This document shows, in pieces, positions 19,873 to 37,938 of a DNA stretch of 64,000 bases. Every line of letters starts with the position of its first letter. Positions within the stretch are counted from its first letter, which is position 1. The stretch is taken from contig NZ_CP108569.1 in assembly GCF_036010505.1 (NCBI RefSeq), positions 2,358,001 through 2,422,000 of the forward strand, written 5' to 3'. Position numbers and translations under genes: made by a program. The notes beneath the pieces are model-generated. The model did not search any database. It was not told where the DNA came from and saw only the letters and a list, made by a program, of their open reading frames with translations. This DNA comes from Streptomyces sp. NBC_01197. Lineage in GTDB: Bacteria; Actinomycetota; Actinomycetes; Streptomycetales; Streptomycetaceae.

Positions 19873-22059
19873 TCAGTCTTCCCCGTCGTCGTCCGCGCGT
19901 TCCTGACCTGCACAGATCTTCAGCACATCGGCCCCGAACCGGGCGATCTTCCGGGCCGGGACGCCGGCGATCCGCGTCAGCTCCGTCTCGCTGGACGGCA
20001 CGGCCTCCGCGATAGCCATCAGGGTCTTGTCGGTGAACACGCAGAACGCGGGCTGTCCCGTCTCCGCCGCCTGGACCGAGCGCCACTCGTGCAGCCGCTC
20101 GTACAGCGCCTCGTCCATGTCGGAAGGGCAGTCCTCGCACCGCATCAGCTTCATCTCGCCGCCGTCGGTCAGGCTCTTGCCGCAGACCCGGCACCGCACC
20201 GGCCCGCGGTGCTTGCGGCGGACCGCCGCACCCCGCTCGATCCCGCCACCGCCACCGGCGCCGCCGCGCAGCCCGGCGGCAGCACCGCCCGACGAGCCCG
20301 GTCGCAGTCCGCTGAGGAAGCGGCTGGGGCGGCGGGAGGCCCTGCCGCCGGGCGACCTGGACAGCGCCCAGGAGAGCGTGAGGTGCAGCCGGGCCCTGGT
20401 GACGCCCACATAGAGCAGCCGGCGCTCCTCCTCGACCTGCTCGTCGGTCTTGGCGTAGGTGATCGGCATCATCCCCTCGGTCAGTCCGACCAGGAACACC
20501 GCGTCCCACTCCAGGCCCTTGGCCGAGTGCAGCGAGGCCAGCGTGACGCCCTGGATGGTCGGGGCGTGCTGCGCGGCCGCCCGCTCGTCCAGCTCGGCGA
20601 CGAGGTCCGAGAGGGTCGCCCCCTCCCTGGCCCTGGCGAAGTCCTCGGCCAGGCGCACCAGCGCAGCCAGCGACTCCCAGCGGTCACGGACCGCCCCGGA
20701 CCCCGCCGGAGCCTCCGCCCGCCACCCCTTGGTGCCGAGCACCGCCCGCACCTGGGACGGCAGATCCACCGCGTCGTCGAGCAGCGGGTCGTTGCCACCG
20801 GCCCGGGCGGCTCCGCGCAGCGCGACGCCGGCCTCCCGCACCTCGGGCCGTTCGAAGAACCGCTCGGCTCCGCGCAGCTGGTAGGGAACCCCCGCGTCGG
20901 CCAGCGCCTGCTCGTAGACCTCGGACTGGGCGTTGATCCGGTACAGCACGGCGATCTCGGACGCGGGGACGCCCGCGGCGATCAGGTCCCGGATCCGGCG
21001 CGCGGTGCCCTCGGCCTCGGTGGGCTCGTCCCCGTACTCCTTGTAGACCGGCTCGGGCCCCGGGGAGCGCTGCGAGATCAGCTCAAGGCGGTGCTCGGCG
21101 GCGCGGCCGCGCGCCTGGGCCAGCAACCCGTTGGCCAGGTGGACGACCTGCGGTGTCGAGCGGTAGTCCCGGACCAGCTTCACCACCGTGGCCTGCGGAT
21201 GGCGGACCCGGAAGTTGAGCAGGTGGTCGGGGGTGGCGCCGGTGAACGAGTAGATCGTCTGGCTGGCGTCGCCCACGACGCACAGATCCTCCCGGTCCCC
21301 CACCCACAGTTCGAGAAGCCGCTGCTGCAGCGGGCTGACGTCCTGGTACTCGTCGACCACGAAGTGCTGGTACTGACTGCGGATCCGGTCGGCGATGTCG
21401 TGCCGGTCCTGGAGGATGCCGACGGTCAGCAGCAGCACGTCCTCGAAGTCGATCACTCCCCGGTCCCGCTTGAGCTGCTCGTACATCGCGTAGATCTGGG
21501 AGATCTCGGCCGGGCCCCGGGGCGCCTCGCGGGCCGACTTCGCGATGGCCGCCGGATAGTCGGCGGGCACGGTCTGGGTGACCTTGGACCACTCGATCTC
21601 GCCCGTCACGTCCCGCAGCTCATTGCGGTCGAGCCGGACACCGCAGCGCGCCGCGGCCTCGGCGACCAGCTGGACCTTGCGCTCGACGAGCCGGGGCACC
21701 TCGCCGCCGACCGCCTTGGGCCAGAAGAACTGGAGCTGGCGCAGCGCGGCCGAGTGGAACGTACGCGCCTGGACACCGCCCGCGCCGAGCTGGCGCAGCC
21801 GCCCGCGCATCTCCCCGGCCGCGCGGTTGGTGAAGGTGACGGCGAGCACCGTGGAAGGCTGCAGTATCCCGGCGCGCACCCCGTAGGCGATGCGGTGCGT
21901 GATCGCGCGCGTCTTGCCCGTACCGGCTCCGGCCAGCACACACACCGGACCGCGCAGGGCCGTCGCGACTTCGCGCTGCTCGGGGTCGAGACCTTCGAGC
22001 ACCGCGTCGGCGGAGTCCGGAACCTGCGGGAAGAGAGAGGCGTGCGTTGCTGCTGTCAC
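19873..22059 (-). CDS. uvrD2: ATP-dependent DNA helicase UvrD2
   Basis: The 728-residue superfamily 1A helicase starts at GTG 22059. Walker A AGAGTGKT is near residue 42. Further motifs are AVTFTNRAA, VVDEYQDVSPLQ (Walker B), GDASQTIYSFTGA, LVRDYRSTPQV and LHSAKGLEWDAV, with LLYVGVTRAR as motif VI. A Gly/Arg-rich linker then leads to two zinc-type Cys pairs (RCRVCG and RCEDCP), followed by a C-terminal HRDC domain. That architecture is characteristic of actinobacterial UvrD2 (Rv3198c), a 3'-5' helicase for DNA repair. It is divergent from the mycoredoxin gene. Confidence 0.95.
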   Translation of the reverse strand: MTAATHASLFPQVPDSADAVLEGLDPEQREVATALRGPVCVLAGAGTGKTRAITHRIAYGVRAGILQPSTVLAVTFTNRAAGEMRGRLRQLGAGGVQARTFHSAALRQLQFFWPKAVGGEVPRLVERKVQLVAEAAARCGVRLDRNELRDVTGEIEWSKVTQTVPADYPAAIAKSAREAPRGPAEISQIYAMYEQLKRDRGVIDFEDVLLLTVGILQDRHDIADRIRSQYQHFVVDEYQDVSPLQQRLLELWVGDREDLCVVGDASQTIYSFTGATPDHLLNFRVRHPQATVVKLVRDYRSTPQVVHLANGLLAQARGRAAEHRLELISQRSPGPEPVYKEYGDEPTEAEGTARRIRDLIAAGVPASEIAVLYRINAQSEVYEQALADAGVPYQLRGAERFFERPEVREAGVALRGAARAGGNDPLLDDAVDLPSQVRAVLGTKGWRAEAPAGSGAVRDRWESLAALVRLAEDFARAREGATLSDLVAELDERAAAQHAPTIQGVTLASLHSAKGLEWDAVFLVGLTEGMMPITYAKTDEQVEEERRLLYVGVTRARLHLTLSWALSRSPGGRASRRPSRFLSGLRPGSSGGAAAGLRGGAGGGGGIERGAAVRRKHRGPVRCRVCGKSLTDGGEMKLMRCEDCPSDMDEALYERLHEWRSVQAAETGQPAFCVFTDKTLMAIAEAVPSSETELTRIAGVPARKIARFGADVLKICAGQERADDDGED

Positions 22060-22266
22060 CCCGCCATGCTGCCAGGTCCCACGAGACCGGCGGGTCCGTT
22101 GTCCACAGGGCACCGGTCGCAGTCGTACTAATGCGGGAATGGTGACCGGGTCACGTACGTTCTACGGCATGTGACTTCCCGGGGCCACGCCCCGGGAATC
22201 CCCATGTATCGGACGAAGCAGCACAGACAGCTGCGGGCGAAGCAGCAGCAGAGGAGCGCGAGAGAC

Positions 22267-22524
22267 ATGCCGGGCACTGTGACGATGTACAGCACCACAT
22301 GGTGCGGCTACTGCCGTCGGCTGAAGGGCCAGATGGACCGCGAGGGCATCGCGTACACCGAGGTGAACATCGAGCACGACGCCGACTCCGCGGCCTTCGT
22401 GGAGAAGGCGAACGGCGGCAACCAGACCGTCCCGACGGTTCAGGTAGTTCCCGCCGACGGTGGCGCTGAGGTCGTGATGACCAACCCGAGCCTTGCCCAG
22501 GTCAAACAGGCGCTCGGCGTCTGA
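22267..22524 (+). CDS. Mycoredoxin (glutaredoxin-like, CGYC)
   Basis: The 85-residue thioredoxin-fold protein starts at ATG 22267. The active site is CGYC in MYSTTWCGYCRRLKG, the cis-Pro segment is TVPTVQV and the end is LAQVKQALGV, all typical of mycoredoxin-1. It reduces mycothiol-protein mixed disulfides in the cytoplasm, using mycothiol where other bacteria use glutathione. It is divergent from uvrD2, as in mycobacteria. Confidence 0.94.
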   Translation: MPGTVTMYSTTWCGYCRRLKGQMDREGIAYTEVNIEHDADSAAFVEKANGGNQTVPTVQVVPADGGAEVVMTNPSLAQVKQALGV

Positions 22525-22542
22525 CCCGGGAGCAACGCACGC

Positions 22543-22572
22543 GACCCCGCCCAGGAACCACGGGCGCGGGTC
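22543..22572 (+). terminator. Hairpin after mycoredoxin gene
   Basis: Two arms (22543-22552 and 22562-22572), complementary apart from one bulged base, lie 18 bp past the mycoredoxin stop. They are followed by a pyrimidine-rich stretch. Confidence 0.55.
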
Positions 22573-22637
22573 TCGTCTCTGTCCGGCCGCTCAGCTCTGC
22601 CCGGCTCTGCCCGGCTCTGCTCGGTCTGTCCGGCTGC

Positions 22638-23474
22638 TCAGCAGTACGGCTGCTGGTCGGTCAGTGACGCCGCTACCCGCATGAAGACACCGAAGAGTCG
22701 GTAGAGCTGCGGAACAGCCCCCGCGACCTCGACAGTGCGCGAGTCCCGCAGGCTGACTCCGGGGATCACTTCGAGCTGGCTGGCAATGGTGGCCGACTGC
22801 CACCGCACCGCCAAGGTCGCTGCGGCTTCCGTGTGCGGCAGCCGTGGGCGGGAGTCGGCACGGCGCACCCCCTCAGTGGCGGCTTCCTCGATGGCCTTGC
22901 GCGCTTCGGTCGCAGGCCTCATCCGAGCGCTGAAGCGATCCCTGGCGTACTTGACCGGAGCCGTGACGGCCTGGGCGTCCCAGGCCGTCGCCTCATCGCA
23001 GGCCGCGTCATCGCCGGAAAGCATCACCACGGGCACCCCGAGTGCAGCGGCCGTGGCATGCGCGAACCCGATCTCTCCCATGGGTCGGCCGTCCAGCCAC
23101 ATGTCCTCGATCTCGTGACCCATATAACTGTGGCTGAGCACGCCCAGGGCACCGGCACGTGAGTGGTAGCCGACGCACAGCACCGCGTCGAAGTCACCGT
23201 CCAGACCTTCGAGCATCCCCATCCGCTTGGGCTTGCCCCTGACCAGCTCCGCCTCGCGGTGCATCTGATCCACCAGCAGGTTCCGCATGGATCCGTGTGC
23301 GTCATTCACCAGCACCCTCGTGGCACCGGCCGCGAGCGCGCCACGCACGGCCGCGTTCACGTCCTCGGTCATCATGACCCGGCCGTGCTGGTAGTCCTGC
23401 CCGCCGATCTGCACGTCCTGGGCACCCACCAGTCCCGTGACGCCCTCCATGTCGGCACTGATGTACACCTGCAC
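22638..23474 (-). CDS. M55 family D-aminopeptidase (DppA-like)
   Basis: The 278-residue product has the zinc ligands of Bacillus DppA at the same positions: Asp8 and Glu10 in ISADMEGVTG, His60 in NDAHGSMRN, His104 in GYHSRAG and a Glu near 134 in MGEIGF. No signal peptide. The family forms a decameric, self-compartmentalised cytoplasmic enzyme that removes N-terminal D-amino acids, useful for recycling cell-wall-derived peptides. It lies 64 bp downstream of the GlnH-like lipoprotein gene on the same strand and may be read with it. The peptide ABC importer lies 30 kb away. Confidence 0.93.
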   Translation of the reverse strand: MQVYISADMEGVTGLVGAQDVQIGGQDYQHGRVMMTEDVNAAVRGALAAGATRVLVNDAHGSMRNLLVDQMHREAELVRGKPKRMGMLEGLDGDFDAVLCVGYHSRAGALGVLSHSYMGHEIEDMWLDGRPMGEIGFAHATAAALGVPVVMLSGDDAACDEATAWDAQAVTAPVKYARDRFSARMRPATEARKAIEEAATEGVRRADSRPRLPHTEAAATLAVRWQSATIASQLEVIPGVSLRDSRTVEVAGAVPQLYRLFGVFMRVAASLTDQQPYC

Positions 23475-23537
23475 GCCGCTGCCTCCGCTCTGGCCCCGGC
23501 AACCGCCGAGAACCCGATGATCACCACACTGCCGGTT

Positions 23538-24908
23538 CTAGGATGCCGGGCTCCCGCACACTCCCGGCAGCAGGTCCGTGCCCGCCAGTCTGCGGCGTTC
23601 CTGTTCGAGCTGTGTCAGCAGTCTGTTCTGGGTGGCGCTGTCCGGTGTGCTGAGGAACTTCAGCACCGCGTGCTGGAAGGCGTCGCGCAGGGTGGGCGGC
23701 ATCGCGTCCGAGGCGTCGAAGCACAGCTTGTGCGTCGGCGCCTCGCTCGTTCCGCCGGTGAGGAGCGTCGCCGCCTTGCGGCCGAGCGGGTCGGTGGGCT
23801 GGGGGTCCGAGGCGCTGGGGAAGTGCGGTTTCAGCTTCGGTGCGGCCTGGGCCAGCCAGATCCTGCGGCCCTGAGGGCCGGCCAGTTTGCTGAGCAGTCG
23901 CATCGCCGCCGGGCTGTCGCGGAACACCGCGGCCATGTCGGCCGACACCTCGTATGCGTCCTTGTGGCGGCCCAGCCCGGGAATCGTGTCGGCCGATGGC
24001 TTGAATGTGATGTCAGGGCCGTACAGATAGCGGATGAAGGTCCCCGCGTGCTCCTCCGTGCAGGTACCGGAGTTGAGCAGACCCGTGCCGCCCCTCCCGG
24101 TGTACGGGATGTCCAGCGCGCTCCTGGTGTTCTGCCCGGCCATCAGCGAGGCCCAGGTGCTCCACGCGTCCCGTACCTCGGAGCTGGTCCAGGGCAGGAC
24201 GCCGGTGGCCCACTGCTCGTACACGTCGGGACCGGACCTGTGCAGCAGGATGTCCTCGATCCAGTCGGTGCCCGGCCAGCCCGTGGTGGCCTGTGCGCTC
24301 ATCCCGAGGCACCAGCTGTGCGGCCTGACCGGCTGGTTCGTCCTGGTCCACACCAGGCTCTTGATGTCGACCTTGAGCGGGACCCAGTAGGTGTGCCTGG
24401 TGCCGTTGACGACCAGTTCGGGGGCCCAGGGCGGGTACGCCCTGCTCGCCAGGTCCCCGGCCAGCGGCGTCAGCGCGCCCTCGCGCGCGTACTCCTGGAG
24501 TTCGCCCTGGCTGTTGAGGATCGCCACGTCCGGCGGCGCGTCCGCCTCCAGCTGCGCGACCAGCGTCTCGCGCAGCGAGCTGGTGCCCTGGTAGCTGTAG
24601 GTATACGGGGTGCCGTTGTCCAGCAGGTCCAGCGTCCTGGTGAACGCGGCCGCTTCGCTCCCCGTCCACGGTCCGAGGACGACAACCGTCTGCTTGGCGC
24701 CGCCGGAGCAGCCGCCGCCGAGCGCGGCGGCGAGCACGGTCAGCGTGGCGGCCAGCAGCAGACGCCGACGGCGCCGACGGCGCGGGCCGGTCCCGGCCCG
24801 CTTCGCCGCAGGCGTCCGGCCCGCGCCCCCGCCTCGCTCCGCGCCGCCCGCCTGCCCCGTTCCCCCGCCGGACGGCCCCGTGCGGGTGCCGTGATTCGTC
24901 CGCGTCAC
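23538..24908 (-). CDS. GlnH-like extracellular solute-binding lipoprotein
   Basis: The 456-residue product starts at GTG 24908, overlapping the preceding stop (GTGA). A long basic N-region with seven consecutive Arg precedes a hydrophobic core and a lipobox-like LGGGC (Cys67), so it should be a membrane-anchored lipoprotein. The mature part resembles family 1 solute-binding proteins (TVVVLGPWTGSEAAAF, PDVAILNSQGELQEYA, VWTRTNQPVRPHSWC). No ABC permease or ATPase is adjacent. Instead it is last in an operon with a GlnX-like membrane protein and a PknG-like kinase, so it probably acts as a ligand sensor and not in transport. The ligand is unknown. Confidence 0.82.
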   Translation of the reverse strand: MTRTNHGTRTGPSGGGTGQAGGAERGGGAGRTPAAKRAGTGPRRRRRRRLLLAATLTVLAAALGGGCSGGAKQTVVVLGPWTGSEAAAFTRTLDLLDNGTPYTYSYQGTSSLRETLVAQLEADAPPDVAILNSQGELQEYAREGALTPLAGDLASRAYPPWAPELVVNGTRHTYWVPLKVDIKSLVWTRTNQPVRPHSWCLGMSAQATTGWPGTDWIEDILLHRSGPDVYEQWATGVLPWTSSEVRDAWSTWASLMAGQNTRSALDIPYTGRGGTGLLNSGTCTEEHAGTFIRYLYGPDITFKPSADTIPGLGRHKDAYEVSADMAAVFRDSPAAMRLLSKLAGPQGRRIWLAQAAPKLKPHFPSASDPQPTDPLGRKAATLLTGGTSEAPTHKLCFDASDAMPPTLRDAFQHAVLKFLSTPDSATQNRLLTQLEQERRRLAGTDLLPGVCGSPAS

Positions 24909-26080
24909 CGGAAGTCCTCCCGCCTCGGGACCCGTACGTAGTCGCGCCGGTAGGCCAGGAGCGCCCAGCCGGTGACCGCCGCGCCGAGCAGGCCGGCCGG
25001 CAGGATGAACCCCGTCACCGACTCCCAGCCCGCGCTGTGCGCCCGGCGCATCGCGCCGGCGATCCGCTGCTGCAGCTCGTCGATCGAGCCCGGTGCGGCC
25101 GCCGTGCCGGCGGTCCGTGACAGCTGGACCGCCGGTGCGGCGGAGGACACCCGGGCCAGTTCCCCGTCGGCGATCCGCCGCACGGCCGCCTGTCCGTGCT
25201 GCACCTGCACGGAGCCCAGTACCAGCACAGGCACGGCGAGCAGCGGCAGTACGGTCGCTGCCAGCGGCAGGCTCAGCAGCCGGAACCGCGCCTTCAGGAA
25301 GGTGAGCGTCCGGAACAGGCCGACCGCCAGCAGGACGTACGCGGCGCAGGCGACGGCTGCGAGGGTCACCGGTCCTGTGCCCCAGCCCGCCTCGTGGTCC
25401 AGATCCGCGCGCAGGCTCCGCTCCAGCGAGCCGATGCGGTCCTGGATGGTGGTCGCCTCATAACCGCGTACGGTGCGGTCGGCGCGGTCGGCGCAGCCCG
25501 CCGGGGTGCCCGCGCCACCGGTGCCGTCAGTGCCGCCCGTGCCGCCGGTACCGCCCGTCGTCTCGCAGAGCATGCTGAGCGCGTACGAGAGATACGCCTT
25601 CTTGAGCGTGGGGTCGTCCCGGTTTCGGTCGGCGGTGCCGATGTAGCCGTTGTAGTCGACCACCAGCCCCGACACCACCTGGAGGCCCTGCCGCTGGGAG
25701 GCGCTGAGCGCCGGTGACTGGGCGGCCTCGTTGAGGTTCTGGGTGGCCCTGGTGATCAGGGTCGGATAGGTCTGGCCGAGTCCGATCAGTTCCGGCCCCT
25801 GGAGGACCGAATCGGCTTCCTTCTGTGCCTGGTCCAGGGCGACTTCGGCCCGGGTCAGCTCCACCAGGGCGGGTCCTGTTCGGTCGGCGATCCGGGACGA
25901 GTCGCCGTGCACGTCCCCGTACGCCAGGGACAGCGACCCGAACGCGATCACCGTGAGCAGGGGCAGCACGATCAGCCGGTCGCGGAGGAAGGCGGGGCTC
26001 TGCCCGGCCGGCACGGGGGCCAGGCAGAGCAGCCGGCGCAGCGCCCCGAGTGCCGGAGTCACCCGGCCCGCGCCTCTCAC
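24905..26080 (-). CDS. GlnX-like four-helix membrane sensor
   Basis: The 391-residue product starts at GTG 26080, overlapping the VWA stop (GTGA). Membrane helices lie at about 36-54, 240-262, 272-295 and 355-380. A helical outer domain sits between the first two (about 55-235), with a Gly/Thr tandem stretch at about 185-200 (GGTGGTGGTDGTGG). That topology, and its place beside a binding lipoprotein and a PknG-like kinase, match mycobacterial GlnX, which relays amino-acid binding by GlnH to PknG. No enzyme motif is present. The GlnX assignment rests on topology and context, not on a diagnostic motif. Confidence 0.7.
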   Translation of the reverse strand: MRGAGRVTPALGALRRLLCLAPVPAGQSPAFLRDRLIVLPLLTVIAFGSLSLAYGDVHGDSSRIADRTGPALVELTRAEVALDQAQKEADSVLQGPELIGLGQTYPTLITRATQNLNEAAQSPALSASQRQGLQVVSGLVVDYNGYIGTADRNRDDPTLKKAYLSYALSMLCETTGGTGGTGGTDGTGGAGTPAGCADRADRTVRGYEATTIQDRIGSLERSLRADLDHEAGWGTGPVTLAAVACAAYVLLAVGLFRTLTFLKARFRLLSLPLAATVLPLLAVPVLVLGSVQVQHGQAAVRRIADGELARVSSAAPAVQLSRTAGTAAAPGSIDELQQRIAGAMRRAHSAGWESVTGFILPAGLLGAAVTGWALLAYRRDYVRVPRREDFR

Positions 26081-27471
26081 CGGTGGCTCTTCGTGTAACT
26101 GGCGCGGATCCGGGCGGTCTCGATGTCGAACCGTCTGATGCGGGCGTGCAGCTCCACCTCACCGTCCGCACCGGGCTCGACCAGTTTCTCCAGGTGCCCC
26201 CGCATGGCGTCGTCGCCGACCTCCACTGCGAGCTGCCAGGCCCGGCCGAGGGCCCGGCGTGCGGCCCCGTGGTCATGGGCGCGCAGCGCGGCGCAGCCCT
26301 CCTCGAAGTACCGGACCAGGTCCTCCTGGTGCAGGAAGTGGCCGACGTGGGGGTGCACCCTGCTGTACAGGCCGTGGTCGCCCGACCAGCGGACCACCAC
26401 GGGCCGGGACGGCGGCAGTCCGACCGGTGGCCGGGCAGCGGCGTCCCGTACCAGCTCCACCTCGGTGAGCATCAGCTCCGCGCCCTCGGCCCCGGCGGTG
26501 TGCCGGGCGCTGAGCGAGAGCAGGTACGAGCGGGTCTCGTCGCCCCAGGGTTCGGTGGCGAACTCCCGCAGGAACTCGGTCTCCTCCACCGGCCGCAGCG
26601 TCCGCCGCGTCGGGTGGACCTGTGCGATGGAGCGCAGTTCGGCGTTGTCACTGCGGTAGAGCCGCAGCCGCAGTCCGGTGAGGTCGCGCTCCGCCGCCTG
26701 TCTGGTGAGGTCGTGCAGCCTGGCGGGGAGCGGGCCGGTCGGGTCGGTCTCCTCGAAGGCGTGCGCCGTGCCGTTGAGGCCGGTGGTGATCAGGAGCAGC
26801 TCACCGGTGTCCCAGCCGTCGCCGATGCCGATCGCGTCGCAGGTGAACTGCCCGGCGCAGTCCGCGATGGCGGCGGTCAGCTCCTCGCGGGACTCGTAGC
26901 CCGGTTCGTTCCTGCCGTCGGTGAGCAGCAGGGCGTGGCGTACGAAGTCGGCGCCGCCGCCGGGGAGTCCGGCGAAGAGCTCCCGGGCCCGCCCCAGCCA
27001 GCTGCCGATCGCGGTGCCGCCGCCCGGGTGGCAGGCGCGCAGGGCGTCCTCCGCCGCCCGCCGGCTCATGTCGTCTGCGACAGCGAGGGTGCGCCCGCCG
27101 GGCGGCTGCTCCGGGTAGACGGTGGCGGGCCGGTCGCGGCCCGCGACGACCGCGAAGTACGCGCCGTCGGGCACGGCGTGTACGGCGGCGGCCGCCGCGT
27201 TCCTGGCGGTCGCCATCCGGGTGGGCGGGTTCACCATCGACGACGAGTGGTCGATGAGGAACACCACTGCGTGGCGGGGTCCCTGGTCGGGCGCCGCCGC
27301 CCGCCGGGTGTCCGGAGCGGCCGGGCGCCGGACGGTCACGGTGACGACGGCGTACATCCGCGCCTCCTGTCCCGGGTCCGGCACCGGCAGTTCGGGGACC
27401 TGGCTCACTTCGAGGAAGACCGCGGGCTCAGCCGGTCCCGGATGCGCTGCCGGTGTGCCTTCCCCAGCCAT
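26077..27471 (-). CDS. VWA-domain protein with complete MIDAS
   Basis: The 464-residue product starts at ATG 27471 with GGAGG at good spacing, so the start is firm although it lies 67 bp inside the kinase gene. The VWA fold (about 66-220) has an intact metal site: Asp74-x-Ser76-x-Ser78 (DHSSSM), Thr153 in GGGTAIGSW and Asp185 in LLLTDGRNE. A beta-rich middle and a C-terminal helical region with FLHQEDLVRYFEEGCAALRAHDHG follow. No signal peptide or membrane anchor, so it is probably a cytoplasmic adaptor binding a partner through the metal site. It lies between the kinase and the GlnX-like gene. Confidence 0.88.
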   Translation of the reverse strand: MAGEGTPAAHPGPAEPAVFLEVSQVPELPVPDPGQEARMYAVVTVTVRRPAAPDTRRAAAPDQGPRHAVVFLIDHSSSMVNPPTRMATARNAAAAAVHAVPDGAYFAVVAGRDRPATVYPEQPPGGRTLAVADDMSRRAAEDALRACHPGGGTAIGSWLGRARELFAGLPGGGADFVRHALLLTDGRNEPGYESREELTAAIADCAGQFTCDAIGIGDGWDTGELLLITTGLNGTAHAFEETDPTGPLPARLHDLTRQAAERDLTGLRLRLYRSDNAELRSIAQVHPTRRTLRPVEETEFLREFATEPWGDETRSYLLSLSARHTAGAEGAELMLTEVELVRDAAARPPVGLPPSRPVVVRWSGDHGLYSRVHPHVGHFLHQEDLVRYFEEGCAALRAHDHGAARRALGRAWQLAVEVGDDAMRGHLEKLVEPGADGEVELHARIRRFDIETARIRASYTKSHR

Positions 27472-29825
27472 GGGTGCCTCCTGTCGTGGCGGAAGCCCAG
27501 CGGGCGGACGCTGTTGGCCCGGTCGATGAGGGCTTCCGCGATCTCGTTGCTGTCCGGCAGGTCGGAGCGCCTGGCCTGGTCGGCGAGGCCGCGGTAGAGC
27601 AGGGAGAGCATCTCGGCCAGCTCCTGGGGGCTCTCCGGGGCCGTCAGGCGGCTGTCGAGCTGCGCCGTGAACTCGGCCGGCGTCCGGTGCGGGACGCGGG
27701 CCAACACCGTCTCCCAGAGCTCCGTCTCCAGGCGTTGGCGGGCCCGGTGGTCGGTCAGGCCGTGCTCGTGGAAGAGCGGTCCGAGCCGGTGCAGGGCGTC
27801 TTTGAGCGCGTCGTCGTCGGGTGGCGAGTTCCGGGCCCGGGCCGCCTTGATCCGGACGATGGCGGTCCGGGCCGCGGTCAGATGGCGCGAGTGCGCCGGG
27901 ACGAGTTCCAGCGCGGCCAGGGCACCGGCCAGCCCCTCGCCCCGGTCGGCACGGGTGGCCGGGCTGCCGGTGGCGGCCACGGTGGCGGTGGCGGGCGCGG
28001 TACGGGAGTCATCCGCCGTACCGATGCCGTCCGCCGTACCGGTGCCGCCCTCCGTGCCGGTGCCCCCCGCCGCCGCGTCGTTCGCCGCGGCCAGCAGTAC
28101 CCGGGCGCACCCGAAGGCCGCGCCGCCGAGGGAGTGGTTGCGGCGGCGGACCGCGTCGTAGAGCCGCAGCGCCTGCGGCCACTCCCGCCGGCGCTCCGCG
28201 CAGTAGCCGAGCGCGATCTTGGGCGCGTACTCGCCGGGGATCGCGTCGTAGATGGCGTCGAACCGCAGGCCCGCGCCGTCGGTGTTCCCCGCCGCGAGCG
28301 CCAGCAGGCCCAGATGCCAGTCGATCCGCCAGTCGTACGGGGCCCAGCCCGGGGTGATGGAGCGCCGGGCCCGGCTGATCTCCGCGTACGCCCGCCTCAG
28401 CGGCCGGGTGTCGTCGGCTGCGACCGCCAGCGCCAGGTACAGCCGGCAGCGCAGCAGATGGAGTTCGGCCGAAGGTTCCCAGCCGCTGGTGCGCTGGAGC
28501 AGCGCGGTCGCGTCGTCCTCGGCGAGCCGGCCGAGCCGGGGCGCGTTCCGGTCGTGCGGGTCGGGCTTCGGTACGGGCAGCCCGCAGGCCATCTCGCCCG
28601 GTTCCGGCGGCACCGGGCCGAGGGGGGCCGGGGGTGCGCCGTTCGCCCAGTGGCCGAGCGGGGGCGGTGAGCCGATCGCGCCGTCGAGGGCGTGGGCGGA
28701 CTGGACGAAGACGGGGGACGGCTCGAAGGACTCCTGGGAGGTACGGAGGGAGCGCAGTTCGCGCAGCACCCCGCGGAGCTGGAGCGCCATCTCGTCGGCG
28801 GTGGCGAATCTGGCCCTGCGGTCGGCGTGGGTGGCGCGGTCCAGCGCCCTGCGCAGGGACTCGGGCCCCAGCCCCCGCGCGGGCGGCGCGGCGGCGCTGA
28901 GTTCGCGCAGGGTCACGCCGAGGCTGAACAGGTCGTCCTGGAAGCGGGATTCCCCGTCCGGGCCGACGCCCGGCGCGAAGTAGCCGGGGGTGACCGGCCC
29001 CTCGGCCCGCTCCTGACGGACGCTCCCCACGTCGACGATCTTTATCTCGGTGCCGCAGTGCATGACGTTGTGCGGCTTGAGATCGCCGTACACCTTGCCC
29101 TTCTGCTGATGGAGGTAGCTGAGGGCGTTCAGGATGCGGATGCCGTAGCCGAGCACGAACTCGTGGAAGCGCACTCCGCCGAAGGCGTCCGGATCGTTGA
29201 CGACCCGGACTCTGACCTCCTCCAGGGTCAGCCCGCTGGCGTATTCGAGCACCAGGAACTCGCCCGCGGGGTCGTGGCTGCCGTAGTTGAACACCCGGAT
29301 GAGATCGGGGTGGTTGAGGGCGACGAGCTCCTGGCGTTCGCTGCGCATCGCCTTCTCGTTGAGCCTGATGTCCTCGCGGCGCGCGCTGGGAGGGCCCCCG
29401 TCGTTCCCGTCGTGCTGCTGGTGCAGGAACTTGACCGCCACGGGGCGGTTCTCCAGCCGGGTGTCCTCGGCGAGATGCACTTCGCCCATGCCTCCGTACC
29501 CGATGCTCCTGATCAGCCGGTACTGCCCGGCCAGCATCCGGCCGGGGCCGAGGCCCAGCCTCCGCAGCCGGCCGGTGTCGTACGGGACGGCCACCGTGGC
29601 CACGGGCCGCACCTCGGGGAGTACCAGCGGGTCGTGGTCCTTCTCCGGGGGCGGGAGCAGCACAGCGGCGGCGGCCGGAGCCGCGGGCTGCTCCCGGCGC
29701 GGGCCGGGCGGCCGGGCGCCTCCGGCGTGGTGGCCGGTCGCGGAGTCGACGCGTCTGCCGCTGCGCTGGCAGTAGCCGGCGGGGGTGATCCGGCTGCCGC
29801 AGCCGGGGTGGGGGCACGGGGTCAA
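27405..29825 (-). CDS. PknG-like Ser/Thr protein kinase with TPR tail
   Basis: The 806-residue product starts at TTG 29825, overlapping the protease gene stop (TTGA) behind GGAGAGGAG. The N-terminus is a zinc-ribbon-like knuckle (Cys4, Cys9, Cys19) whose fourth ligand is Ser22. The kinase domain (about 103-360) has the glycine loop IGYGGMGEV, Lys132 in VAVKF and catalytic Asp248 in VYGDLKPHN. Its magnesium motif is DVG at 265, not DFG. PknG-type kinases likewise lack the usual HRD Arg and DFG. A helical TPR-like tail (LGLLALAAGNTDGAG, EWPQALRLYDAV) fills the last 350 residues, with a Gly/Thr repeat insertion. Its substrate is unknown; GarA is not in the window. Confidence 0.88.
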   Translation of the reverse strand: MTPCPHPGCGSRITPAGYCQRSGRRVDSATGHHAGGARPPGPRREQPAAPAAAAVLLPPPEKDHDPLVLPEVRPVATVAVPYDTGRLRRLGLGPGRMLAGQYRLIRSIGYGGMGEVHLAEDTRLENRPVAVKFLHQQHDGNDGGPPSARREDIRLNEKAMRSERQELVALNHPDLIRVFNYGSHDPAGEFLVLEYASGLTLEEVRVRVVNDPDAFGGVRFHEFVLGYGIRILNALSYLHQQKGKVYGDLKPHNVMHCGTEIKIVDVGSVRQERAEGPVTPGYFAPGVGPDGESRFQDDLFSLGVTLRELSAAAPPARGLGPESLRRALDRATHADRRARFATADEMALQLRGVLRELRSLRTSQESFEPSPVFVQSAHALDGAIGSPPPLGHWANGAPPAPLGPVPPEPGEMACGLPVPKPDPHDRNAPRLGRLAEDDATALLQRTSGWEPSAELHLLRCRLYLALAVAADDTRPLRRAYAEISRARRSITPGWAPYDWRIDWHLGLLALAAGNTDGAGLRFDAIYDAIPGEYAPKIALGYCAERRREWPQALRLYDAVRRRNHSLGGAAFGCARVLLAAANDAAAGGTGTEGGTGTADGIGTADDSRTAPATATVAATGSPATRADRGEGLAGALAALELVPAHSRHLTAARTAIVRIKAARARNSPPDDDALKDALHRLGPLFHEHGLTDHRARQRLETELWETVLARVPHRTPAEFTAQLDSRLTAPESPQELAEMLSLLYRGLADQARRSDLPDSNEIAEALIDRANSVRPLGFRHDRRHPWLGKAHRQRIRDRLSPRSSSK

Positions 29826-31561
29826 CGGGTCCGCTCCTCTCCGGCGGCCGCGGTGCCGTTGTCGGCGTCCCGCCGCTGAAGGGCCTCTTCCGGGCCGGGG
29901 CCGCCGTCCAGCCGCGCGTGCACGGTCGTCACGAACGCCGCCACCGCCCGCTCCACGTCGTCGAGGCTGCTCGGCCCCTCCGTCAGCAGCTGCTGCGCCC
30001 GCCGGTACTGGTCCACCGCCACGGCATCCTCGGCCCGCTGGTGGTCGGCGAGCCGGGCCTGCCCCGCGGCGAGCAGACCGCGCAGGTCCAGCATCCGGTC
30101 GAGGGCGGCGCGCAGCCGCTGTTCGACGTCTTCGGCCCGCAGCAGCGCGCTCAGTACGGACTGTTCGGCGTACGACAGCATCTGCAGCAGCGCGGCCACT
30201 CCCGCCTCGCCCTCCGCGGGCGCCACCTCCTGCGCCTGTGTCCGCTCCAGTTCGGCCGCGAGCTGCGTCGTCCACAGCTGGGCCCGGGCGCCGTGCCGTG
30301 CGGGCGGTGCCGGCAGCCCGGTGACGCGCGGCTCCAGCCTCCGGATCAGGTCCCTGATGGTGCGCTCGGTGCCGGAGAGCCTGTCCGCACGGTCCGTCAG
30401 CCGCTCAAGCCACTGCGCTGCGCGTCCGGCGGGCAGCAGCTCACCGGTCAGTACGGGGGCCGGGCCGTGCAGTACGAGCAGGAGCCTGGACCCGCGGTCC
30501 GTCAGCCGGCGCAGCAGCCCGGCCGTCTCGCCGGGGTCCGCGGCCGCCCGGTCGGGCAGCGAGACGACGACGGAGGTCAACTGCCGTGGTGGCTGCGGGT
30601 CCAGGTCCTGGGCGAGCTGCTCCCGGGAGCGCCCGGCCGCGGCCACCGCCAGGCTGATGCTGCCGCGGCGCGGGACCGCGGGACCGCCGGGCCGGCTGCT
30701 CGCCGTGGCCGAGAGCCCGGGTGACCGCTCCCGGTCGGCCAGGCCCAGGGTCGTCCGGAGCGCGACGTCGGCCTCCTTGTCGTCCTCGCGCAGGAAGACG
30801 GTCTCGATGTCCCAGCTGTCGTCGTCACCGTTCAGCCAGCAGGTCAGGGTCTGCTGGAGGCCCAGCGGGCGGCCGGTGCGCTGGTCTCCCGGTGCCACCG
30901 ACAGCCGGGGCGGAATGACCTGCGGACCTGTCATGTGGTGTTCCGCGACGAGCCGGAGATGGCCGGCGATGGTCGCGGCCGGGATCATATAGAAGTGGAA
31001 GAACGGGCTCCGGTCCGCCGGGGTGTCGTACACCGCGACCATGATCCCGAGCAGCCGGCCGGTCCCGGCCTCGGTGACTCCGGCGCCGCTGAAACCGCGC
31101 GGGTCCGGGTCGTGGAAGTCGACCGGGTTGATCTGCACCCACTCGTCGCCGTGGCCCCCGGGCCCCTTGAGCACGGCGTCCACCCAGAGCCCGCCCGAGC
31201 GGTGCCTGGGAAACCCGTCCACCGTCACCCGGGTGTCGTACGGGGCGGGGTCGCGGTGGAGTACGGCCGTGGAGGTCACCGGGGCGGGCTCGGTGAGCCG
31301 CAGCAGCGCCAGATCCCCTTCGTCGCGCCCGTACCGCTCCACCCAGTGGCCTTCGACCACCCGCGCCGAGCGCGACACGCCGTTCGGCTCACCGCCCAGG
31401 ACCGGGAACTCGACCCGTACCGGCTCGGTGGGGCCCGGCACCACATGGGCACAGGTCAGCACCAGGTCCCGGCCGAGCAGGACTCCGGCACCGAGCACCT
31501 CCCCCGGCTCGCCCCCGGGCAGCTCCGCACGTAATCGCAGCCGCCAACTCTGTTGATCCAT
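29822..31561 (-). CDS. Trypsin-like serine protease with C-terminal signalling region
   Basis: The 579-residue product starts MDQQSWRLRLRA at ATG 31561; ATG 31594 is an in-frame alternative. The chymotrypsin-fold domain (about 15-230) has the full triad: His39 in TCAHVV, Asp83 in DLALLRL and Ser158 in RGFSGAG. No signal peptide, so it is a cytoplasmic protease. Residues about 250-579 include a Rossmann-like strand pair (SVVVSLPD, LLLVLHGP) and helical regions. Codon 10 is TTA (31532-31534), so translation should need the bldA tRNA. It is first in the operon, ends in a TTGA overlap with the kinase and is divergent from trypco2. Confidence 0.88.
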   Translation of the reverse strand: MDQQSWRLRLRAELPGGEPGEVLGAGVLLGRDLVLTCAHVVPGPTEPVRVEFPVLGGEPNGVSRSARVVEGHWVERYGRDEGDLALLRLTEPAPVTSTAVLHRDPAPYDTRVTVDGFPRHRSGGLWVDAVLKGPGGHGDEWVQINPVDFHDPDPRGFSGAGVTEAGTGRLLGIMVAVYDTPADRSPFFHFYMIPAATIAGHLRLVAEHHMTGPQVIPPRLSVAPGDQRTGRPLGLQQTLTCWLNGDDDSWDIETVFLREDDKEADVALRTTLGLADRERSPGLSATASSRPGGPAVPRRGSISLAVAAAGRSREQLAQDLDPQPPRQLTSVVVSLPDRAAADPGETAGLLRRLTDRGSRLLLVLHGPAPVLTGELLPAGRAAQWLERLTDRADRLSGTERTIRDLIRRLEPRVTGLPAPPARHGARAQLWTTQLAAELERTQAQEVAPAEGEAGVAALLQMLSYAEQSVLSALLRAEDVEQRLRAALDRMLDLRGLLAAGQARLADHQRAEDAVAVDQYRRAQQLLTEGPSSLDDVERAVAAFVTTVHARLDGGPGPEEALQRRDADNGTAAAGEERTR

Positions 31562-31653
31562 AAGCGCGTTGAATCCTATCGGCTCCCCCTCCATGCTTCC
31601 CCAGAGTAGGGGCAGGGCGCGACAATGGGACCCGGGCTGCACAAGGGGGAGCA

Positions 31654-31980
31654 ATGAATGACGGGACCGGAGCCGCACCAGTGGCGGGGCTGGCGGACCT
31701 GATCAGCCAGGTCAGGTCCGAGCTGGCGGAGGCGCAGCGCCGGATCGGGGACAGCACGCTGCGCCTGAGCGTGGAGCGGGTGACGCTGGAGATCGCGGTG
31801 CAGGTGAGCCGGGAGGCCGGCGGCGAGGGGAAGCTGCGGATCGGTGTGGTCACCGTGGGCGGCAGCGGGTCGGTGACCCGTGACAACACCCACCACATCA
31901 AGGTCGAACTGCAGCCCCGCAACGAGGACGACACCCCGGGCTGGATCCCGGTGGGCCGCCAGGGCCACCAAGGCCACTGA
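31654..31980 (+). CDS. Trypco2 family protein (trypsin-co-occurring domain 2)
   Basis: The 108-residue product starts at ATG 31654 behind GGGGGAG. It has the compact domain seen in trypco2 proteins: an N-terminal helix (LADLISQVRSELAEAQRRIG), then beta strands LRLSVERVTLEIAVQV and KLRIGVVTVGGSG, and the HHIKVELQP end. Such proteins are encoded beside trypsin-like proteases in predicted actinobacterial signalling or conflict systems. Here the protease gene is divergent, with 92 bp between starts. The domain probably binds the protease or relays a signal. No catalytic residues are evident. Confidence 0.85.
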   Translation: MNDGTGAAPVAGLADLISQVRSELAEAQRRIGDSTLRLSVERVTLEIAVQVSREAGGEGKLRIGVVTVGGSGSVTRDNTHHIKVELQPRNEDDTPGWIPVGRQGHQGH

Positions 31981-32019
31981 CGCCGTCCGTCTGCGGGGCT
32001 GCTCCGTACTCCTGCCAGG

Positions 32020-33057
32020 TCAGGCCAGCGGCTTCGGCAGCGGCTTGCCGTACCAGAGCTCCACCAGCCGGGCCGCGATCGAGATACCGGCCGGGGGCAG
32101 CACATCGCCGGACTCGATCGCCGACCGCAGGTCGTCCCGCGAGAACCAGCGGGCCTCGCTGATCTCCTCGCCGTCCACGGTGATCTCGGACGTCGTGGCC
32201 TGCGCCATGAAGCCGAGCATCAGACTGGACGGGAAGGGCCAGGGCTGGCTGGCGATGTACTGCACCGAGCCGACCGTGACACCCGCCTCCTCGAACACCT
32301 CGCGCCCCACGGCGGCCTCGATGGACTCGCCCGGCTCGACGAAACCGGCGAGCGTGGAGAACCGGCCCTCGGGCCAGTGCACCTGCCGGCCGAGCAGCGC
32401 CCTGTCCTGCTCGTCGGTGACGAGCATGATCACGGCCGGGTCGGTACGCGGGTAGTGCTCAGCCCCGCAGGCCTGACAGCGCCGGATGTGACCGGCGGCG
32501 GCGATGACGGTGCGCTCGCCGCAGCGGGAGCAGAACCGGTGCAGCCGCTGCCAGTTCTCCAGCGCCACCGCGTGCACCAGGAGTCCGGCGTCGAGCGGCG
32601 AGAGCAGCAGCCCCGCCTCGCGCAGCCCGGCCGGCCGGGCGGACTGGTCCATCCGGCCGGGGAGGGTGTCCTTCTGGAGCGCGAAGTACCGGACTCCGTC
32701 CGCGTCCGTGCCGAGGAAGTAGCGGTGCTCCTCGGTGAGGGGGGCCTCGAACGACGGGGTCTTGAGCAGTTCGGTACGGCCGTCGGACGTCTCGTCGATC
32801 AGCGCCTGGCCGCCGGAGACCACGAACACCCGGGTCGTCGGGTGGCTCCAGGCCGCCGCGAGCCACGCCTCGTCGAGGCGGTGGTGGGCGGCCCGGTCGA
32901 CGCCGCTCGGGTCCGTCAGAGCGATCGGCCGGTGCGGATCCGTTGCGGTACTGGCCTCCTCGGAACGGGCCCCGTCGGCAGGGCCGTCGGTGGCCCCGCC
33001 GTCAGTGGTCCCGCCTTCGCTCGCGCGGCCTTCGGTGGCATTGCTGAAGTTGCTCAC
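32020..33057 (-). CDS. nudC: NAD(+)/NADH pyrophosphatase NudC
   Basis: The 345-residue product starts at GTG 33057, preceded by AGGGGGAG; TTG 33069 is an alternative. It has the zinc ribbon FCSRCGERT...RCQACGAEHYPRTDP, the Nudix box GFVEPGES...REVFEEAGV and the NudC signature SQPWPFPSSLM. Together these specify NAD(H) hydrolysis and removal of NAD caps from RNA. The first 40 residues are a Gly/Thr/Glu-rich tail that is longer than in most NudC. It is a cytoplasmic enzyme, read from the minus strand just after the M20 peptidase gene. Confidence 0.95.
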   Translation of the reverse strand: MSNFSNATEGRASEGGTTDGGATDGPADGARSEEASTATDPHRPIALTDPSGVDRAAHHRLDEAWLAAAWSHPTTRVFVVSGGQALIDETSDGRTELLKTPSFEAPLTEEHRYFLGTDADGVRYFALQKDTLPGRMDQSARPAGLREAGLLLSPLDAGLLVHAVALENWQRLHRFCSRCGERTVIAAAGHIRRCQACGAEHYPRTDPAVIMLVTDEQDRALLGRQVHWPEGRFSTLAGFVEPGESIEAAVGREVFEEAGVTVGSVQYIASQPWPFPSSLMLGFMAQATTSEITVDGEEISEARWFSRDDLRSAIESGDVLPPAGISIAARLVELWYGKPLPKPLA

Positions 33058-33105
33058 AGGTGCTTCCAACTCCCCCTCATGACTGGGTGGTTCGGTTCGG
33101 CGTTC

Positions 33106-34500
33106 TCATCGCAGGGCGGCGGCCATATCGCCCCACAGATGGGCGGTGGTCTCCACGCCCTTGAAGAGCAGGCCGAGTTCGACCTTCTCGTTCGGTGCGT
33201 GCCAGCCGTCGGACGGCACGGAGATGCCCAGGAAGAGCACCGGGGCGCCGAGGACGTCCTGGAGATCGGCGGCCGGGCCCGAGCCGCCCTCCCGGGTGAA
33301 GCGGATCTTCTCGTCGAACGCCCGGCCCATGGCCCGTACGACCGACTGGAGCGCCGGGTGGTCCAGCGGGGTCAGACACGGGCGGGTGCCGGCGCTGAAC
33401 GTGATCTTCTGGCGGATCCCCGGCTCCGCCCGGCCGGCCGCCCACTCGGTGACCAGCTTCTCGGTCCGGACCGGGTCCTGTCCCGCGACCAGCCGGAACG
33501 AGAGCTTCACCATGGCCGATGACGGGACGACCGTCTTGCCGCCCGCGCCCTGGTAGCCGCCGCCGATACCGTTGACCTCGGCGGTCGGGCGGGCCCAGAT
33601 CCGCTCCAGCGTGGTGTGGCCCCGCTCACCGGCCGCCGCACGGGACTTGGCGGTACGCAGCCACTCGGCCTCGTCGAAGGGCAGCTCCGCGAAGAGCTCG
33701 CGCTCGGCGTCCGTGAGCTCCGCGACACCGTCGTAGAAACCGGGGACGGTGACGCGCCCGTCGGCGTCGTGCAGCGCGGCGACCAGCCGGGCCGCCGCGG
33801 TGGCCGGGTTCGGGACGGCGCCGCCGAACGAGCCCGAGTGGATGTCCTGGTCGGGGCCGTCGAAGGTGATCTCGCACTCGGCGAGGCCGCGCATTCCGGT
33901 GCAGACGGTCGGGGTCGTCTCGGACCACATACCGGTGTCCGAGACGATCACCACGTCGGCCGCGAAACGCTCGGCCCACTGCTCGACCAGCGCCCTGAAG
34001 TGCGGGGAGCCGGACTCCTCCTCGCCCTCGACGAGGAGCTTGAGGTTGACTGCGGGGGCGGTGCGGCCGGTGGCGGCGAGGTGGGCCCGGACTCCGAGTG
34101 TGTGGAAGAACACCTGGCCCTTGTCGTCGGCCGCGCCCCTGCCGTACATCCGGCCGTCCCTGACGACCGGCTCGAAGGGGTCGGTGTGCCAGCCGTCGCC
34201 GGCCGCCGCGGGCTGGACGTCGTGGTGACCGTAGACGAGGACGGTCGGCGCTTCCGGGTTGTCCGAAGGCCACTCGGCGAAGACCGCGGGGGCGCCGGGC
34301 GTATCGAGGATCTCGGTGACCGGGAAGCCGGTCTCCTTGAGTTTGGCGGCCAGCCAGTCGGCGCTGCGGCGTACATCGGCTGCGTGCTCCGGCTGCGCCG
34401 AGACGGAGGGGATACGCAGCCAGTCGGCCAGGTCTTCGAGGAAGTGCCCTCGGTGCTGGTCTATGTACGTGCGGACGGCGCTGTCCGGGGTGTCGCTCAT
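33106..34500 (-). CDS. M20 family dipeptidase
   Basis: The 464-residue product starts MSDTPDSAVRTY at ATG 34500. Metal-site motifs are in order: VYGHHDVQP with GWHTDPFEP, YGRGAADDKGQ, the catalytic-base segment LVEGEEESGSP, VIVSDTGMW, and a C-terminal His-containing segment (SDGWHAPNEKVEL). A dimerisation domain lies in the middle. Length and motifs match CNDP-like dipeptidases. No signal peptide. It begins 10 bp after adnB and precedes nudC by 48 bp, so the four genes are probably one unit. Confidence 0.93.
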   Translation of the reverse strand: MSDTPDSAVRTYIDQHRGHFLEDLADWLRIPSVSAQPEHAADVRRSADWLAAKLKETGFPVTEILDTPGAPAVFAEWPSDNPEAPTVLVYGHHDVQPAAAGDGWHTDPFEPVVRDGRMYGRGAADDKGQVFFHTLGVRAHLAATGRTAPAVNLKLLVEGEEESGSPHFRALVEQWAERFAADVVIVSDTGMWSETTPTVCTGMRGLAECEITFDGPDQDIHSGSFGGAVPNPATAAARLVAALHDADGRVTVPGFYDGVAELTDAERELFAELPFDEAEWLRTAKSRAAAGERGHTTLERIWARPTAEVNGIGGGYQGAGGKTVVPSSAMVKLSFRLVAGQDPVRTEKLVTEWAAGRAEPGIRQKITFSAGTRPCLTPLDHPALQSVVRAMGRAFDEKIRFTREGGSGPAADLQDVLGAPVLFLGISVPSDGWHAPNEKVELGLLFKGVETTAHLWGDMAAALR

Positions 34501-34510
34501 GCCGTCGAGC

Positions 34511-37500: not shown

Positions 37501-37906
37501 CGCCCGGCGAGTAGTACGGATCGGCGCTCTCCGTCGGCACGGAGGGGTGGCGGCCGTTTGACGATCCCGGCGGGCCGGTACCGAGGGCGTCCGGGTCGGT
37601 GACGCCGGCGCGGACCAGTGCCTTGCGGACCCGCTCGGCCAGCTCGCCCGCCGCCTTGTTGGTGAAGGTCAGCCCGAGCACCTGCTCGGGCGCGACCTGG
37701 CCGGTCCCCACCAGCCACACCACCCGCGCGGCCATCACCGTGGTCTTCCCCGATCCGGCTCCGGCCACGATGACCTGCGGGGCGGGCGGCGCCGTGATGC
37801 AGGCCGTCTGCTCCGGGGTGAAGGGGATGCCGAGAAGCTCCTTGAGCTGCTCGGGACCGGTGATGCGTGGGGTCACCTCAGAAAGGCTAACGGCGCCCTG
37901 TGACAT
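34511..37906 (-). CDS. adnB: AdnB-like helicase-nuclease subunit
   Basis: This is a 1131-residue UvrD-family helicase joined to a RecB-type nuclease. I used ATG 37906; the ribosome site is weak and GTG 37876 is possible. Walker A is VAGAGSGKTT near residue 50, followed by LTFTNKAAGELAERV, LLDEYQDTS, AVGDPCQAIYGWRGA, LSENRRSGG and LTAHKSKGLEWDVV. The C-terminal nuclease has RGTRFHAWVE, IRGRMDAVYR, IVDWKTH and QLAVYRLAW, so its catalytic Asp/Lys set is intact. With the adjacent upstream gene it forms an AdnAB-type resection machine for double-strand break repair. Which of the two is AdnA or AdnB is assigned by gene order and Walker region similarity. Confidence 0.88.
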   Translation of the reverse strand: MSQGAVSLSEVTPRITGPEQLKELLGIPFTPEQTACITAPPAPQVIVAGAGSGKTTVMAARVVWLVGTGQVAPEQVLGLTFTNKAAGELAERVRKALVRAGVTDPDALGTGPPGSSNGRHPSVPTESADPYYSPGEPRISTYHAFAGQLLTDHGLRIGLEPSSRLLADATRYQLAARVLKEAPGPYPALTKSFSSLVSDLLALDGELAEHLVAPEALRTYDTGLLAALEGAKLTNAELRKVPEAAGARRELLDLVNRYRAAKRSRDLLDFGDQIALSAELALTRPEVGTILRDEFRVVLLDEYQDTSVAQRLLLSGLFGGGSGHAVTAVGDPCQAIYGWRGASVANLDDFPEHFPYADGSPATRFSLSENRRSGGRLLDLANGLAAPLRAMHAGVEALRPAPGAERDGMVRCALLRTHEEEIGWLADSIAHLVRTGKDPGEIAVLCRTAGDFAEIQGALVARDVPVEVVGLSGLLHLPEVADLVAVCEVLQDPGANASLVRLLTGPRWRIGPRDLALLGRRARLLVRYDSAAGDEGADPDQRLAEAVEGVDPAEVVSLADALDTFLTGGGGAEAGSVDGPGGGRTDDGLPFSADARVRFARLAAELRDLRRSLAEPLMDVLHRVLATTGLEVELSASPHALAARRRETLSHFLDIAAGFASLDGEASLLAFLGFLRTAAQYEKGLDNALPGGENTVKVLTAHKSKGLEWDVVAVPGLVARQFPSEQSREAWTAQPKVLPHALRGDAATLPGVGAWDAKGLAAFKAAMKSHQHTEELRLGYVTFTRPRSLLLGSAHWWGPSQKRPRGPSDFLLALQEHCAAGYGETEVWADAPEEDEENPALREAAADRAWPLPLDETSLHRRRAAAELVLDQLNEVADQDHLNTPSVPHARTPLTPEDARTITSWDRDLDALTDELLRARRTVRDVPVPLTLTATQLLRLAEDPDAFAHELARPMPRPPQPAARRGTRFHAWVESRFEELPLPMLGPDELPGGDDDEPEIADERDLAELKAAFERTPYAGRTPHRVEAPFTLTLAGRVIRGRMDAVYRTSRDTYEIVDWKTHRAHTADPLQLAVYRLAWAEQHHIPLTSVTAAFLYVRTGEVIRPTPLPGRAGLERIMLGDPPGEPPRPAG

Positions 37907-37938
37907 TCGAAGCCGGGCACCGCGCGGCCGGGCGCCCG

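Follow-up and report, generated by a model that had tools for sequence, protein, structure and literature searches.

In mycobacteria and Corynebacterium, signalling runs through GlnH, GlnX and the kinase PknG, whose TPR region is the likely docking site of GlnX, and PknG phosphorylates an FHA-domain substrate, GarA or OdhI (PMC6069109 and PMC8546545 for the pathway, PMC8546545 for the substrate, in the portions of these papers available to us). Here we describe a related locus in Streptomyces sp. NBC_01197 (assembly GCF_036010505.1), contained in a 64,000-nucleotide stretch of contig NZ_CP108569.1 (positions 2,358,001 to 2,422,000, forward strand; hereafter the window, to which coordinates refer). 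A sequence-only reading of this DNA had proposed that five coupled genes for a trypsin-like protease, a PknG-like kinase, a VWA protein, a membrane sensor and a solute-binding lipoprotein, together with a divergent trypco2 gene, form one sensing and proteolysis system. We consider it probable that the locus is a diverged GlnH-GlnX-PknG sensor operon from which the FHA/PP2C branch is missing and in which an intracellular protease serves as the output.

Comparison with described systems

Like the GlnH-GlnX-PknG operon of Mycobacterium and Corynebacterium, the window locus combines a solute-binding lipoprotein, a multi-helix membrane protein and a PknG-type kinase with a TPR region in one operon (PMC6069109, PMC8546545, available portions). 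It differs in that its solute-binding protein (SBP) is of the SBP_bac_1 family, its membrane protein does not reach the GlnX cut-off, its kinase has no rubredoxin match and no FHA gene adjoins it, whereas genes for a VWA protein, a protease and trypco2 are present.

The MoxR-vWA ternary conflict systems of the VMAP and iSTAND types share other features with the locus: trypsin with an adjoining Trypco2, a vWA protein and what looks like the same joining of trypsin to an inactive STAND-type domain (PMC7159879, seen in part). However, no MoxR AAA+ ATPase occurs among the 11 window proteins that were scanned for domains (19876 to 38080, not every open reading frame (ORF) there), the window VWA is related to the VWA of PknG operons, and the sensor half consists of an SBP, a GlnX-like protein and a PknG-like kinase. 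GAP1-N2 GTPase-centred systems, which comprise a kinase, a PP2C and a standalone vWA, resemble the locus in the linkage of an actinobacterial kinase gene to a standalone vWA gene. They differ in their GTPase, GAP1 and PP2C, none of which was found among the scanned window proteins, and the accessible part of the same paper says nothing of SBP, GlnX or trypsin in that context (PMC7159879). The Streptomyces genes SGR_4432 and SCO1468 are likewise kinase genes genetically linked to an SBP gene, and no protease is mentioned for them in the accessible part of the source (PMC6069109). The literature searched, with most subscription papers and supplements outside it, yielded no description of a PknG-protease cassette; the component families are known, and their combination, fusion and spread appear undescribed there.

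The locus and the standard PknG operon of its genome

All six ORFs of the sequence-only reading were confirmed, with high third-position GC in the five minus-strand frames, which run from upstream to downstream as protease, PknG-like kinase, VWA, GlnX-like membrane protein and solute-binding lipoprotein. The tight coupling also held: the protease stop and the TTG start of the kinase share TTGA at 29825-29822, 67 bp (27405-27471) belong to both the kinase and the VWA ORF, and 4-bp overlaps join the VWA ORF to the GlnX-like ORF and the latter to that of the SBP. In the orthologous loci L046 and L047 (L and G numbers are our labels for loci and genomes), the alignments of kinase and VWA have 64 bp in common.

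A family search of the same genome revealed a much stronger PknG_TPR match at 5.14 Mb, in an operon (L036) encoding, in order, GlnX, GlnH (SBP_bac_3), a coiled-coil protein, PknG with rubredoxin and TPR, PP2C, VWA and FHA. Both loci have an SBP, a GlnX or GlnX-like protein, a VWA and a PknG-type kinase; over the aligned parts the two VWAs are 36% identical and the kinases 31%, and profile comparison shows the tail of the window protease to be homologous to the coiled-coil subunit of L036. L036 has no trypsin, middle domain or trypco2, whereas the window locus is without the PP2C and FHA genes of L036: no FHA profile match was obtained between 19001 and 36000, and PP2C was not found at the locus. 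Given these identities and the PP2C and FHA genes not found, the best reading of the window locus is that of a diverged PknG-operon copy.

Of 20 loci taken from other genomes as canonical, 17 have the VWA gene (the exceptions being L132, L137 and L140), and it is missing from all 28 PknG-SBP_bac_3-GlnX loci of Amycolatopsis, Prauserella and their kin among 80 named loci, a set drawn from the 130 found. Some genomes hold one locus of each kind, such as G034, with VWA in L133 and without it in L106. Thus, VWA is a common, not universal, member of PknG operons. The sequence-only reading had VWA coming from conflict systems, along with trypsin and trypco2, to a PknG operon that had none; we rejected such an import, as the standard operon of the same genome and 17 of the 20 canonical loci carry VWA. 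As a separate observation, four PknG loci (L109, L110, L122 and L125) have a single kinase flanked on both sides by GlnX-SBP_bac_3 pairs running in opposite directions.

Conservation and architecture across genomes

A search with the GlnX-like protein found matches in 123 of 392 genomes of the same genus, and an alignment search with the trypsin and middle domains of the protease gave 121 matches in 119 of the 392, among the matches listed. The protease gene adjoins a GlnX-like gene or a PknG-like kinase in 117 of the 121 cases, the other four lying at contig ends. A GlnX-like match lies within 9 kb of 80 of them; on inspection of the remaining 41 neighbourhoods, 37 showed an adjacent PknG-like kinase and L152, L159, L166 and L175 were cut by contig ends. 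Of the 37, the L149 case depends on a 17-bit tail at the end of a contig, and L150 and L167 are decayed copies. The 121 rows were picked as reaching into the middle domain, with partial rows counted (G447, G161, G486, G663); they are not a full census, because three kinds of row were left out: fragments at contig ends (G399, G658), G663's second half, and rows that stop near model positions 272-284 (G585, G462, G360, G554, G389). Some match was listed for 335 of the 392 genomes, the weaker rows mostly covering the trypsin part only. Beyond the genus, a class-wide sample of 296 genomes yielded 10 genomes with a trypsin-middle match; nine belong to the same genus, and the tenth (G227) is from another family.

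We classified 142 loci with profiles built here, setting aside the decayed L150 and L167. Since the loci come from related species and were collected by way of GlnX-like, PknG or protease matches, their counts are not independent events. All 50 complete SBP_bac_1-type cassettes with a separate protease have a VWA gene. In 12 further complete loci the trypsin domain, middle domain and kinase lie in one ORF; each of these has a divergent trypco2 gene and none has VWA (0/12). VWA is likewise missing from every one of the 22 complete Streptomyces cassettes that have no protease (0/22). Pfam recognizes trypsin, kinase and PknG_TPR in both fused proteins that were checked (L077 and L078). At the other end of the cassette, the GlnX-like and SBP parts share one ORF in L105, L181 and L183, confirmed for L105 by Pfam and blastp. 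The six-gene layout of the window, trypco2 included, recurs in eight of the 80 named loci, including those of S. himalayensis, S. jeddahensis, S. flavidovirens and S. chryseus; the closest named relative over the kinase segment is Streptomyces sp. NBC_01306 (93% identical). Rather than being scattered, the outcome the sequence-only reading had set against its own proposal, the homologues behave as a co-conserved unit, by the linkage of 117 of 121 proteases, the constancy of VWA beside separate proteases and the 12 fusions.

In a quick kinase tree of 124 rows, for which the tool issued a long-branch warning, the 13 fused kinases form one group with support of 98 (99 with the contig-cut L088), and the window kinase falls in a 28-row set with support of 100 that comprises 5 separate-protease and 23 protease-less loci. 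The distribution fits a history in which one line lost protease and VWA together and another lost VWA on fusion; both losses would agree with VWA bridging the kinase to the protease, though the events are few.

Two further ORFs, in L150 and L167, were considered as SBP-kinase receptor fusions. We rejected this, as they join a kinase without its TPR end to an SBP without its N-terminal part; the loci read as decayed copies with internal deletions, from which the VWA and GlnX-like genes have gone. Separately, next to the protease-less SBP_bac_1-type cassette of L112, another kinase (L112:3114-5294) carries a fused NMT1-like solute-binding domain.

Properties of the encoded proteins

The His-Asp-Ser triad is complete in 77 of 77 trypsin domains, that of the window included. 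A Walker A P-loop (GxxxxGK[ST]) is present in none of 76 middle domains, and the window middle domain has no Pfam match at E <= 1 and no Foldseek match at E <= 0.001. In profile comparison it aligns to the nSTAND1 portion of a protein with an additional bacterial death-like domain, and it looks like a STAND domain without a P-loop. Middle-domain matches were also obtained at six other loci (L186-L191), in two of which, L188 and marginally L191, a local profile found the domain again. A second trypco2 gene of the same genome (L037:6698-6931; C1:790703-790933) lies away from PknG matches and adjoins a 1212-aa ORF.

The window kinase matches Pkinase (71.1 bits, cut-off 31.7) followed by PknG_TPR (102.1 bits, cut-off 27), and PknG (2pzi) is its best match among solved structures. 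The name PknG-like holds for the kinase and TPR parts and does not extend to rubredoxin: there is no PknG_rubred match at E <= 1, and the canonical paralogue of the same genome has one. The rubredoxin domain is also absent from corynebacterial PknG (PMC8546545, available portion). The window kinase keeps the VAIK Lys, the loop Asp, Lys and Asn, and the Asp and Gly at the DFG position; among kinases beside a separate protease, the loop and DFG-position residues are kept in 49 of 49 and the ATP-binding Lys in 48 of 49 (one gap). Six protease-less loci (L054, L055, L058, L059, L061 and L065) have a second, divergent kinase-like gene upstream on the opposite strand, and in the same six a long stretch separates the kinase and TPR parts of the PknG-like kinase.

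The remaining assignments of the sequence-only reading were borne out for the trypsin-like protease, the VWA protein with its full metal-ion-dependent adhesion site (MIDAS; DxSxS, T and D), the four-segment membrane protein, the solute-binding lipoprotein and trypco2, by Pfam, residues and hydropathy. A hydropathy scan placed four hydrophobic segments in the membrane protein, one in the lipoprotein and none in the protease, kinase or VWA protein, and the match of the VWA protein to the solved VWA protein 4fx5 spans its full length (Table 1). The name GlnX-like draws on those four segments and on a weak match to NCBIfam model NF058618, which stays below the curated cut-off; Pfam finds nothing in this protein. 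The name GlnH-like had to be given up: with a match above cut-off to SBP_bac_1 and not SBP_bac_3, the family of the GlnH of its own genome, the lipoprotein is not a GlnH by family. Solved structures gave no SBP match at E <= 0.001. A lipobox regular expression (63 hits in 95) missed the lipoprotein's own Cys, and was unreliable and unused for counts.

The five flanking genes scanned encode two UvrD-type helicases, an NADH-pyrophosphatase-type Nudix protein, an M20 peptidase and an M55 peptidase, and have a housekeeping or general look. The M55 D-aminopeptidase (DppA-like) gene, at 22638-23474, is directly downstream of the SBP gene; it probably lies outside the cassette, since no gene of similar size was called at the same place in L046 and L047.

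Table 1. Genes and domains of the window locus
Feature	Position	Strand	Evidence
Solute-binding lipoprotein, SBP_bac_1 type (putative sensor)	23538..24908	-	Pfam SBP_bac_1 E 2.6e-8; N-terminal hydrophobic segment then Cys
GlnX-like membrane protein, four hydrophobic segments	24905..26080	-	NCBIfam GlnX E 3.8e-6, 26.3 bits vs cut-off 250; hydropathy
VWA protein, complete MIDAS	26077..27471	-	Pfam VWA_3 E 8e-11; 4fx5 E 2.7e-50; 36% identity to standard-operon VWA
PknG-like kinase with TPR region, no rubredoxin match	27405..29825	-	Pkinase E 1.3e-19; PknG_TPR E 3.5e-29; 2pzi E 2.5e-37
Protease: trypsin domain, middle domain, helical tail	29822..31594 (start ATG 31594 or 31561)	-	Trypsin_2 E 2.2e-12; structure model pLDDT 82
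Trypsin domain of protease	30938..31570	-	
Middle domain of protease, STAND-like without P-loop	30323..30937	-	
Helical tail of protease, homologous to coiled-coil subunit of standard PknG operon	29825..30295	-	Profile comparison probability 98.5, E 1.6e-15, 109 columns
trypco2 gene, divergent	31654..31980	+	Pfam Trypco2 (PF19631) 89.4 bits vs cut-off 24.2, E 1.9e-25

Discussion

A diverged sensor cassette that is without the usual output genes, and has a protease in their place that is sometimes fused to the kinase, suggests that an outside signal may directly switch protein cutting. In the mechanism that we consider probable, the membrane-anchored SBP would sense a ligand outside the cell and alter the GlnX-like membrane protein, which would act on the TPR region of the PknG-like kinase. 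VWA would form a bridge from the kinase to the helical tail of the protease. The kinase, with VWA, would then control the trypsin domain through the STAND-like middle domain, so that the signal would run inwards and end in the cutting of a cellular target. The trigger could be phosphorylation or a change in kinase shape, and trypco2 would be a partner of the protease, perhaps its inhibitor or substrate. More tentatively, we propose as a possibility a ligand-to-proteolysis path across the membrane, in which an extracellular SBP would govern a cytoplasmic trypsin by way of a PknG-type kinase and an inert platform of STAND-like type. In the fused lineage the kinase, having lost typical catalytic residues, would have become a non-phosphorylating allosteric switch. 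A metabolic kinase sensor would then have turned into a protease under receptor control, which may serve Streptomyces as a developmental or cell-death switch.

Several observations weigh against this mechanism or parts of it. In 22 complete Streptomyces cassettes there is a lipoprotein, a GlnX-like protein and a kinase alone, with no protease, which gives the sensor part some other use in them; L112, from another family (G049), has VWA and no protease. Four of the 22 (L048, L054, L064 and L071) showed no recurrent gene upstream of the kinase, the upstream listing for an alternative effector covering fifteen loci. The phylogenetic correlation of VWA with the protease is not significant (3 independent pairs, of which 2 are concordant and 1 does not differ; sign test p 0.5). 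Additionally, trypco2 turned up in no more than 11 of the 50 cassettes with a separate protease, and the MIDAS is degenerate in some of the 52 VWAs beside a separate protease, with the first Ser in 43, the second Ser in 46 and the Thr in 44. In all 13 fused kinases the loop Lys is changed to Ser and the DFG Gly to Ala, the other residues being kept. Given these two changes, the fused kinase may be weak or non-catalytic, which speaks against phosphorylation as the trigger in the fused lineage only; Kaur and colleagues report disrupted catalytic residues in most kinase domains of their vWA systems (PMC7159879, available portion).

The protease might instead provide feedback, cutting the kinase, the VWA protein, the GlnX-like protein or trypco2 to reset or sharpen a signal whose true output would be a kinase substrate encoded elsewhere. 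GarA/OdhI is a substrate of PknG in mycobacteria and Corynebacterium (PMC8546545, in part), the kinases beside separate proteases keep the checked motif residues, and the 22 cassettes limited to SBP, GlnX-like protein and kinase can be presumed to signal with no protease. We nevertheless judge feedback unlikely: no FHA gene was found in the SBP_bac_1-type cassettes, and the fused lineage keeps a complete protease triad while its kinase residues change, which fits the protease as output better. That protease and trypco2 are mere neighbours of a second PknG sensor, with an independent function, seems very improbable. Most trypco2 genes do lie elsewhere (among the matches listed, 3 of the 27 trypco2-bearing genomes of the class sample have one beside a PknG_TPR match) and kinase cassettes without a protease exist, yet mere adjacency sits poorly with the linkage of 117 of 121 proteases, the protease-kinase fusion and a tail related to a PknG-operon subunit.

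A role in defence or cell death, with phage, envelope damage or a toxin as the cue and a protease that kills or arrests the cell, seems doubtful to us. It draws on the alignment of the middle domain to the nSTAND1 part of a death-like-domain protein, and on conflict systems predicted for multicellular bacteria, which include trypsin with trypco2 as well as peptidases joined to inactive STAND domains (PMC7159879, in part). On the other hand, the scanned flanking genes are not defence genes, PADLOC gave nothing beyond general kinase and protease matches, and the sensor half belongs to a nutrient-sensing pathway.

The protease-output mechanism would bring together, in one compact cassette, the sensing of the outside by bacterial Ser/Thr kinases and a cue for the trypsin and trypco2 proteins of multicellular actinobacteria. 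Natural fusions fix the wiring of kinase to protease, and the protease occurs in 119 of 392 sampled genomes of the genus, among the matches listed. The cassette offers a tractable route to the ligand, to whether VWA acts as an adaptor and to how a kinase sensor may be rewired from metabolic control to proteolysis.

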